A DNA stretch of 64,000 bases from Halopiger xanaduensis SH-6 (lineage in GTDB: Archaea > Halobacteriota > Halobacteria > Halobacteriales > Natrialbaceae), in assembly GCF_000217715.1 (NCBI RefSeq), contig NC_015666.1, positions 1,500,270-1,564,269 of the forward strand, written 5' to 3'. Below the pieces are notes generated by a model, which made no database searches, was not told where the DNA came from, and worked only from the letters and a program-made list of their open reading frames with translations. The stretch's first letter is position 1, and every line of letters begins with the position of its first letter. The position numbers and the translations under genes were made by a program. This document shows, piece by piece, positions 62,424-64,000 of the stretch.

Positions 62424-63134
62424 ATGAGCAAGATCACGTTCCGCGCCGACGACGACCTCGTCGAGGAACTCGAGGCGCTCGAGACCTCGAAGAGCGAGGC
62501 GATGCGGGAGGCGCTTCGAGCGTACCTCGAGGAGGAGGAGGAGGTGAGCGGTACGTCGGTGCAGGACGGATCGGACGGGGCCGAAAACGAGAGCGCAGCG
62601 CGCGCGAACGAAACCGCGATCGACGATCTGGTTCGCGAGCGCGTCGACGAACTCCTGACGGAGCGACTAGCGGAGATGGGATACAACGCGCACGGGCGCG
62701 AGGGACAGCCGCGCCCGCAGTCGTCCCAACCGCAGGACGTAAACGTCACGATCGCGCTCGAGGACGGGCGGGCGCGGCGCGTCGACGAGGCCCAGGGTTC
62801 GGCGTCGTCACACGCACGGCCACACACGCAGGCCCGGTCCGACTCGCGAGCGGGTCGCGAGAGCGAACACGGCCGCGATCGCTCGCAGCACCCGCAGGAC
62901 GAGCCTCAGTCCCAGTCCCAGTCCCGAACGCCGAGCCGACAGCGCACGTGCGGCCAGTGCGGCGAGGACGTCGACGGCGAGCACGTCTTCTGTCCCAACT
63001 GCGGGGAGAAGGTTTCTCGCCGGTTGTTCTGCGACTGCGGCGACGAACTGCGATCGGACTGGGCGTTCTGCCCCAGCTGCGGCCGACGGACGGCGTCAGC
63101 GGACGTACTCGAGTCGAACAGTCAACGATCGTGA
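62424..63134 (+). CDS. cdrL: CdrL: ribbon-helix-helix regulator with long linker and C-terminal double zinc ribbon
   Basis: A 236-residue protein. Residues 1-38 form a ribbon-helix-helix DNA-binding domain (S-K-I-T-F-R-A-D-D-D-L-V-E-E-L-E-A-L, then S-E-A-M-R-E-A-L-R-A-Y-L). Residues about 60-85 are a helical segment, and 90-172 a Gln/Ser/Arg/His-rich, probably disordered linker with S-Q-S-Q-S-Q. The C-terminus has eight cysteines in C-x-x-C spacing or near it (C176, C179, C190, C193, C203, C205, C216, C219), giving two zinc ribbons. Position upstream of cdrS and ftsZ2 identifies it as the long Cdr protein, a regulator of that operon. The ATG at 62424 is preferred over 62385. Confidence 0.87.
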   Translation: MSKITFRADDDLVEELEALETSKSEAMREALRAYLEEEEEVSGTSVQDGSDGAENESAARANETAIDDLVRERVDELLTERLAEMGYNAHGREGQPRPQSSQPQDVNVTIALEDGRARRVDEAQGSASSHARPHTQARSDSRAGRESEHGRDRSQHPQDEPQSQSQSRTPSRQRTCGQCGEDVDGEHVFCPNCGEKVSRRLFCDCGDELRSDWAFCPSCGRRTASADVLESNSQRS

Positions 63135-63204
63135 CTGTTGTAAGACAGTGAGAGTTGCGTCTGACGAAACTTTTATTATCCAAGACAGTATTGCGTTTAT
63201 TCGC

Positions 63205-63222
63205 GTAAGACGGTCGTCTTAC
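63205..63222. repeat. 18-bp inverted pair GTAAGAC-GGTC-GTCTTAC
   Basis: A perfect inverted repeat with seven-base arms and a four-base spacer. Ribbon-helix-helix dimers bind such two-fold sites. It overlaps the expected transcription start of cdrS-ftsZ2 if TTTTATTAT at 63171-63179 is the TATA element. Confidence 0.85.
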
Positions 63223-63245
63223 AGCGGCCGACGGACGTCGGAAAC

Positions 63246-63261
63246 CGCCCGATGTCGGGCG
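63246..63261. repeat. Hairpin in the cdrS leader
   Basis: CGCCCGA TG TCGGGCG, seven-base perfect arms with a two-base loop. If transcribed it would form a stable stem in the cdrS leader RNA. Confidence 0.7.
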
Positions 63262-63331
63262 ATTCCGGTGTAAGACACGTCGCGTCAGACAGGGGCGCGT
63301 TGCCGTCTTACCTCAACGGGGAATATCAACC

Positions 63332-63511
63332 ATGGAGCGTGTGACACTGCGCATTCCGAAACAGCAGATCGAGGAGGTCGAACAGTTAGTTGACTCGGGC
63401 GAGTTCCCGAACCGGAGCGAGGCGATCCGGTCGGCCGTCCGCGAGATGATCAACGAAGAGTACGACGGACAGACCGAGCAGTCCCGTCAGCGTAATTGGG
63501 CCAAGGTGTAA
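63332..63511 (+). CDS. cdrS: CdrS: short ribbon-helix-helix regulator of cell division
   Basis: A 59-residue transcription regulator made almost entirely of one ribbon-helix-helix domain. It has strand E-R-V-T-L-R-I-P-K, helix I-E-E-V-E-Q-L-V, the turn [11 protein letters not shown] and helix V-R-E-M-I-N-E-E. A polar tail ends in N-W-A-K-V. In haloarchaea CdrS is co-transcribed with ftsZ2 and activates it. It ends two bases before the ftsZ2 ATG, and AAGGTG within its last codons serves as the ftsZ2 ribosome-binding site. Confidence 0.93.
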
Positions 63512-63513
63512 CG

Positions 63514-64000
63514 ATGCAGGATATCGTTCAAGACGCCCTCGAGAACGCCGAACAGGAAGCCCGGCAGATGGACGCCGACATGGACGATGACGAGTTCGGC
63601 GATCCGCGAATCGTCATCGTCGGCTGCGGCGGCGCCGGCAACAACACCGTCAACCGGCTGTACAACATCGGCGTCGACGGCGCTGACACCGTGGCGATCA
63701 ACACGGACAAGCAGCACCTCAAGATGATCGAGGCCGACACGAAGATCCTGGTCGGCAAGTCGCTCACCCAGGGACTCGGCGCCGGCGGCGACCCCTCGAT
63801 GGGGGAGCGCGCGACCGAGATGGCCCAGGGCACGATCAAGGAAGTGCTCGGCGACGCGGACCTCGTGTTCGTGACCGCCGGCATGGGCGGCGGGACCGGC
63901 ACCGGCGCCGCGCCCGTCGTCTCGGAGATCGCCAAAGAGCAGGGCGCGATTGTCGTCGGCATGGTCTCGACGCCGTTCAACGTCGAGCGCGCACGTACCG
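63514..64000 (+). CDS. ftsZ2: FtsZ2 cell-division tubulin homologue, N-terminal part
   Basis: The first 162 codons are present; the gene runs off the right edge. The GTP-binding domain is recognised by [15 protein letters not shown] (near residue 32), I-N-T-D-K-Q-H-L and the tubulin signature [12 protein letters not shown] near 130. The 25-residue N-terminal extension starting M-Q-D-I-V-Q-D-A-L and the position right after cdrS identify FtsZ2, which constricts the division ring, rather than FtsZ1. Translation is likely coupled to cdrS. Confidence 0.93.

Follow-up and report, generated by a model that had tools for sequence, protein, structure and literature searches.

Operators of ribbon-helix-helix (RHH) proteins such as Arc consist of two-fold paired half-sites about 11 bp apart, which corresponds to about one helical turn. 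Structured 5' leaders such as those of ribosomal-protein operons and riboswitches are conserved and covarying, and this is also the case for the cdrS-ftsZ2 leader described here. CdrS-FtsZ2 is a key switch in haloarchaeal cytokinesis, and the closest described system is the CdrL-cdrS-ftsZ2 circuit of Halobacterium salinarum, which has the same gene order and in which CdrL binds upstream of cdrS-ftsZ2 (PMC7439475). In that organism CdrL ChIP-seq, at region-level resolution, reproducibly marks this upstream region and no other site, and the text on the Halobacterium circuit gives no motif, array or RNA structure, unlike the present locus (PMC7439475). Because of second-site mutations in the delta-cdrL strain, its phenotype does not settle the sign of regulation (PMC7439475). 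A discrepancy between Halobacterium RNA-seq and Ribo-seq led to the inference of post-transcriptional control of the cdrS-ftsZ2 operon (PMC8303175). In Haloferax volcanii, where cdrS has a published TATA box, start site and 5' untranslated region, CdrS operators are likewise symmetric RHH-type motifs at promoters; CdrS ChIP-seq returned 18 sites, including ftsZ1, dacZ and threonine ammonia-lyase, and its own promoter is not listed (PMC8406309). A literature search found no relevant paper linking GTAAGAC with haloarchaea and none after 2020 with CdrL and haloarchaea.

The window, the whole 64-kb stretch of Halopiger xanaduensis DNA that was analysed, ends inside this circuit. On the plus strand, cdrL (62424..63134) is followed by cdrS (63332..63511), identified by its ORF and by Pfam as encoding an RHH protein of 59 aa, and by the ORF of ftsZ2 (63514..64000), which runs beyond the window edge. 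Pfam places an N-terminal RHH domain, a CdrL_M middle region and a C-terminal double zinc ribbon in CdrL (PF01402, PF24252 and PF12773, all above cut-off). The array is found in the interval bounded by the cdrL stop (63134) and the cdrS start (63332), and its five exact copies of GTAAGAC, all confirmed where the original prediction had placed them, fall within 172 bp upstream of cdrS. Copies 1 (63140-63146), 2 (63205-63211) and 4 (63270-63276) are on the plus strand and copies 3 (63216-63222) and 5 (63305-63311) are on the minus strand. The heptamer occurs 70 times in the 4.36-Mb genome, a count from which the probability of at least five copies in 197 bp is about 2e-15. Copies 2 and 3 make up an inverted repeat of 18 bp, as predicted, with 8-bp arms around a 2-base centre; it is not a perfect 18-bp palindrome. 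The near copy that had been reported at 63181-63189 exists as CCAAGAC at 63180-63186; it has two mismatches and is poorly conserved in the aligned leaders, and three relatives have a full GTAAGAC copy at this position.

A predicted BRE/TATA element, CGAAA CTTTTATTAT (63165..63179, plus strand), falls between copies 1 and 2, and its TATA columns are near 2 bits in 209 aligned leaders. Reckoned from this element by the usual archaeal distance, transcription is inferred to begin at about 63198-63203, only a few bases short of copy 2. Copy 1 would then lie outside the predicted cdrS transcript, upstream of the promoter elements. The core of the inverted pair is adjacent to the promoter, 33 bp beyond the TATA core, and the predicted positions of TATA box and start support the earlier proposal that the pair overlaps the probable start site.

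Conservation of the motif in related haloarchaea, which had been proposed as a check, is extensive. Among 110 Natrialbaceae loci (named relatives include Natrialba, Natrinema, Natronococcus and Halobiforma), exact copies 2, 3 and 5 are present in all 110, copy 4 in 109 and copy 1 in 90; copy 4 is the least conserved of the transcribed copies. The inverted pair GTAAGAC-N2-7-GTCTTAC occurs in 381 of 392 Halobacteria genomes, exactly once in 379 of them, and is upstream of cdrS wherever the position of CdrS is also known. The reversed pattern, used as a control on the same genomes, is nearly empty, with 9 forward matches in total. In a survey of the phylum the pair was found in 79 of 81 Halobacteria versus 6 of 312 genomes of other classes, and conservation of the array spans 84 of 86 genera. 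Of 210 unique leaders, 202 show no change in the 7-mers of copies 2 and 3.

The spacing between copies is less uniform. The equal 65-base spacing of the plus-strand copies, reported by the original prediction, holds in H. xanaduensis, and copy 1 precedes copy 2 by 64 or 65 in nearly all the Natrialbaceae in which it is present. The equal spacing is not a class-wide rule, as only this stretch from copy 1 to copy 2 is almost constant, and this in Natrialbaceae alone; in the other families a place about 52 bp before copy 2 is mostly taken by an inverted copy or by the variant GTCATAC. Copies 2 and 4 are 62 to 89 apart across leaders, mostly 64-68. Since this interval is variable and that of copy 1 is family-specific, the two equal 65s are partly coincidence.

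The spacing of copies 2 and 3 is the exception. Start to start it is 11 in 159 and 12 in 40 of the 202 unique leaders with the pair, so that two-fold half-sites 11 or 12 apart are found in 199 of 202 leaders, and by sequence the pair matches the operator geometry of RHH proteins of the Arc/MetJ/CopG type. The array differs from Arc-type operators in that its half-sites reach into the transcript and also pair as RNA. DNA binding at the array is likely, given that copy 1 lies upstream of the TATA box, and CdrL is the best candidate reader by published ChIP-seq. In H. xanaduensis the published CdrS targets ftsZ1, dacZ and threonine ammonia-lyase (ilvA-like) carry the 11-bp-spaced pair GTCNGAC-N4-GTCNGAC, with at most one mismatch, in their promoters (G000:C3:3314588, 2096438 and 1296860). 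Across genomes this pair, with at most two mismatches, is found in 29 of 31 ftsZ1 and 15 of 29 dacZ promoters, where about 0.3 would be expected, and it may be taken as a text-level consensus for the CdrS operator. CdrS operators usually consist of one such pair upstream of the TATA box. The array shares their geometry but not their half-site: GTAAGAC, or its variant GTATGAC, departs from GTCNGAC at the third or fifth base, one base per half-site, and across genera the array sites remain GTAAGAC and the CdrS-type sites remain GTCNGAC. The recognition strands are alike, MERVTLR in CdrS and MSKITFR in CdrL, with a common K/R3-T5-R7 pattern of which K3, T5 and R7 are invariant in CdrL. The shared geometry, the half-site difference and the similar recognition strands favour a model with two codes, in which CdrL would read the array and CdrS the GTCNGAC pairs. 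The difference between the half-sites can be tested in vitro.

One CdrS-type half-site does occur in the leader itself. GTCAGAC (63284..63290, plus strand) is present in the leaders of most Natrialbaceae, with about 97 matches near -45/-50 among 109 leaders of this family. In the same 109 leaders GTCWGAC was observed 114 times versus 2.1 expected; the leaders of other families show no excess of GTCWGAC. Elsewhere in the genome, chains of three or four GTCNGAC-like half-sites in 11-bp steps were seen at G000:C3:406112-406140, 1267504-1267532 and 3504441-3504488, two of which adjoin genes for small proteins that, judged by their sequence, appear HalOD1-like.

The genomes without detectable CdrL bear on the identity of the reader. 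A profile search detected CdrL in 378 of 392 Halobacteria genomes, and 12 of the 14 genomes without detectable CdrL keep the inverted pair. In the remaining 2 of the 14 the cdrS locus was not found either, which suggests an assembly gap. The array is thus not confined to genomes with CdrL, and at least six examined loci lack cdrL beside an intact leader; these absences rest on assemblies most of which are 93-99% complete. No masked bases were found in the CdrL-less loci checked. In the loci examined tRNA-Tyr, which elsewhere flanks cdrL, is usually near the leader with no cdrL between them, and cdrL therefore looks to have been lost independently several times. The genomes of L206, L219, L241, L244, L248, L260, L455, L456 and L464, which belong to at least six genera, are without cdrL. 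Since 12 CdrL-less genomes keep the pair, CdrL is not its sole reader, and another reader or function must maintain the array there. CdrS is next to the array in every genome checked, the CdrL-less ones included. The prediction of an operator array for Cdr proteins is partly supported, by conservation, by the 11/12-bp geometry, by the position over the predicted start site and by CdrL binding upstream of cdrS-ftsZ2 (PMC7439475), with the amendment that CdrL is not the only reader. Autoregulation by CdrS, also proposed earlier, agrees with the geometry shared with CdrS-type pairs but not with the published CdrS ChIP-seq, in which the cdrS promoter is missing.

What the DNA-operator interpretation had missed is that copies 2 to 5 are the predicted arms of a previously undescribed, conserved leader RNA fold. 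The structured 5' leader RNA of cdrS-ftsZ2 (63200..63334, plus strand) scores 111.9 bits with the covariance model R1 and has a fold z of -3.08. In the predicted fold, helix P1 pairs 63205-63213 with 63303-63311, so that copy 2 is its 5' arm and copy 5, beside the translation start region, its 3' arm. P1 encloses helix P2, formed by copies 3 and 4, in which 63216-63223 is joined to 63269-63276, and the stem continues as 63225-63227 joined to 63265-63267. Copies 2-3 and 4-5 do not form separate hairpins in this fold. A hairpin CGCCCG-AUGU-CGGGCG (63246..63261, plus strand), whose columns are moderately conserved, is predicted inside P2. Across the 93 leaders that have all four copies, the mean pairing probability is 0.89 for P1 and 0.90 for P2, and the nested fold is obtained in 86. 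When the motifs are held fixed and the rest is shuffled, the hairpin of copies 2 and 3 becomes dominant (0.66) and P1 and P2 fall to 0.18 and 0.16. With folding parameters and energies that are not for molar KCl, the minimum free energy is -58.1 in the real leaders versus -47.4 in the motif-fixed shuffles, and the sense strand folds at -53.8 versus -47.9 kcal/mol for the complement, a strand-specific gap that exceeds that of composition-matched shuffles.

Covariation also points to the nested structure. It gains 145 compensatory cells in 125 leaders, versus 71 when shuffled and at most 68 in slid controls, figures which, the sequences being related, are inflated by an uncertain degree and are not independent probabilities. 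The leader thus combines a conserved fold with compensatory changes, as a structured leader RNA would. The local hairpins 2-3 and 4-5, considered as alternatives, show no excess of compensatory cells and are disfavoured in the real leaders. Pairing of the P2 flanks is above that of shuffles both inside and outside Natrialbaceae; 34 leaders with a degenerate copy 4 retain the P2 stem, and the CdrL-less L206 keeps it with wholly different letters. The fold as a whole is kept in several CdrL-less genomes. Other observations are less favourable. Among the most divergent leaders tested, several (e.g., L252, L261 and L263) lack P1 and P2 in the prediction. G-U pairs are not in surplus over A-C mismatches in the helices (60 versus 84), so this simple strand test gives the RNA no support. 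Applied to the whole alignment, RNAalifold recovered hairpin 2-3 and nothing else, because gaps spread the long-range arms, whose sequence does not vary. A monocistronic cdrS mRNA has been published with a size of about 250 nt, too small to hold both the leader and the gene. This counts against the fold; the size may reflect processing or rough sizing.

The covariance model finds cdrS leaders that were held out from model building, and its match at the leader is the only strong one in the window. At ftsZ1, at dacZ and at the CdrS paralogue it gives no match of similar strength. No Rfam family scores above chance with the leader, the best reaching 17.9 bits against a gathering score of 50. The leader differs from described leader RNAs in this respect and in that its helix arms coincide with DNA half-sites.

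We consider it probable that the array is a dual-use element, in which RHH operator half-sites are reused as arms of a structured leader and FtsZ2 is controlled at two levels. The fold preference and covariation indicate an RNA constraint on the transcribed copies, and the copy on the far upstream side of the TATA box, together with the invariance of the 7-mers, indicates DNA recognition too. A DNA operator read by CdrL only, with the RNA fold a by-product of the inverted repeats, is unlikely. Such an operator would explain why CdrL ChIP-seq marks the cdrS-ftsZ2 locus only, why the pair is largely confined to the Halobacteria, in which CdrL occurs, and why there is a copy upstream of the TATA box, but not why the 12 CdrL-less genomes retain the pair; moreover, inverted repeats alone give local hairpins and not the nested fold, and the P2 flanks covary past the 7-mer. 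Alternatively, CdrS, which accompanies the array in every genome checked, the CdrL-less ones included, would regulate itself and treat the array as a weaker-binding form of its GTCNGAC pair, a proposal to which the 11-bp geometry, the single-base difference between half-sites and the common K/R3-T5-R7 pattern lend some weight. It is improbable, given the 18-site Haloferax list without the cdrS promoter, the distinctness of the two kinds of site across genera, and the scarcity of the pair in other classes (6 of 312 genomes), where CdrS also occurs, as in methanogens, which do not have CdrL.

The array could conversely be an RNA element only, perhaps bound by a protein that requires GUAAGAC, with the upstream copies acting in a read-through transcript from cdrL. 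Fold preference, covariation, strand asymmetry and retention of the fold in several CdrL-less genomes are what such an element would give. There is little probability in this reading either, as the upstream copy is conserved beyond a conserved TATA box with an orientation that depends on the family, pairing alone does not require invariant 7-mers, and copies 2 and 3 hold the spacing of a DNA operator. A chance cluster or recent local duplication has practically no probability, considering the P of about 2e-15 in this genome, and is already refuted by conservation across 84 of 86 genera.

Under the dual-use reading, GTAAGAC would be an RHH half-site at the DNA level, and copies 2 and 3, with their centres about 11 bp apart, would make up an inverted operator that closely follows the predicted start. 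Copy 1, or the inverted copy in other families, would be an upstream half-site before the TATA box. CdrL, the likeliest reader, would when bound block or tune initiation, and in lineages that have lost CdrL, either CdrS or some other factor would have to maintain selection on the sites. At the RNA level, P1 would tie the 5' end (copy 2) to the start region (copy 5) and enclose P2 (copies 3 and 4), and the fold probably governs how well the cdrS-ftsZ2 message is translated or how stable it is. A more speculative possibility, which we hold to be rather doubtful, is that the leader is a class-wide cis-regulatory RNA in which P1/P2 switches and couples translation of CdrS and FtsZ2 to protein level, with the same 7-mers serving as the DNA operator. 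The trigger might be binding of CdrL or CdrS, or the competing 2-3 hairpin, and one sequence would then be read twice within one feedback loop. If dual use is correct, a single 7-base word acts as operator in the DNA and as helix arm in the RNA throughout an archaeal class. Base-level candidates are now available for both levels of control, the CdrL sites and the suspected post-transcriptional control; the CdrL-less lineages are natural controls, and the new conserved leader RNA comes with a working covariance model.

Some variants of the locus were also seen. In Haloquadratum and relatives (L154, L156 and L192) GTATGAC replaces copy 3 and helix P1 is kept; about 130-100 bp before cdrS these leaders have GTATGAC-TGC-GTAAGAC-GGT-GTATGAC, three direct half-sites 10 bp apart. 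L264 (G317:C13:1029870-1030025) is a second, diverged CdrS paralogue without array, leader RNA or adjacent CdrL. In IMG/VR, 56 viral contigs have the exact pair, judged to be about chance for a collection that large. The sequence GGGGAATA (63318..63325, plus strand), 7-14 nt before the cdrS ATG, is strongly conserved, mostly at 1.3-1.9 bits per column, and differs from the usual haloarchaeal Shine-Dalgarno sequence.
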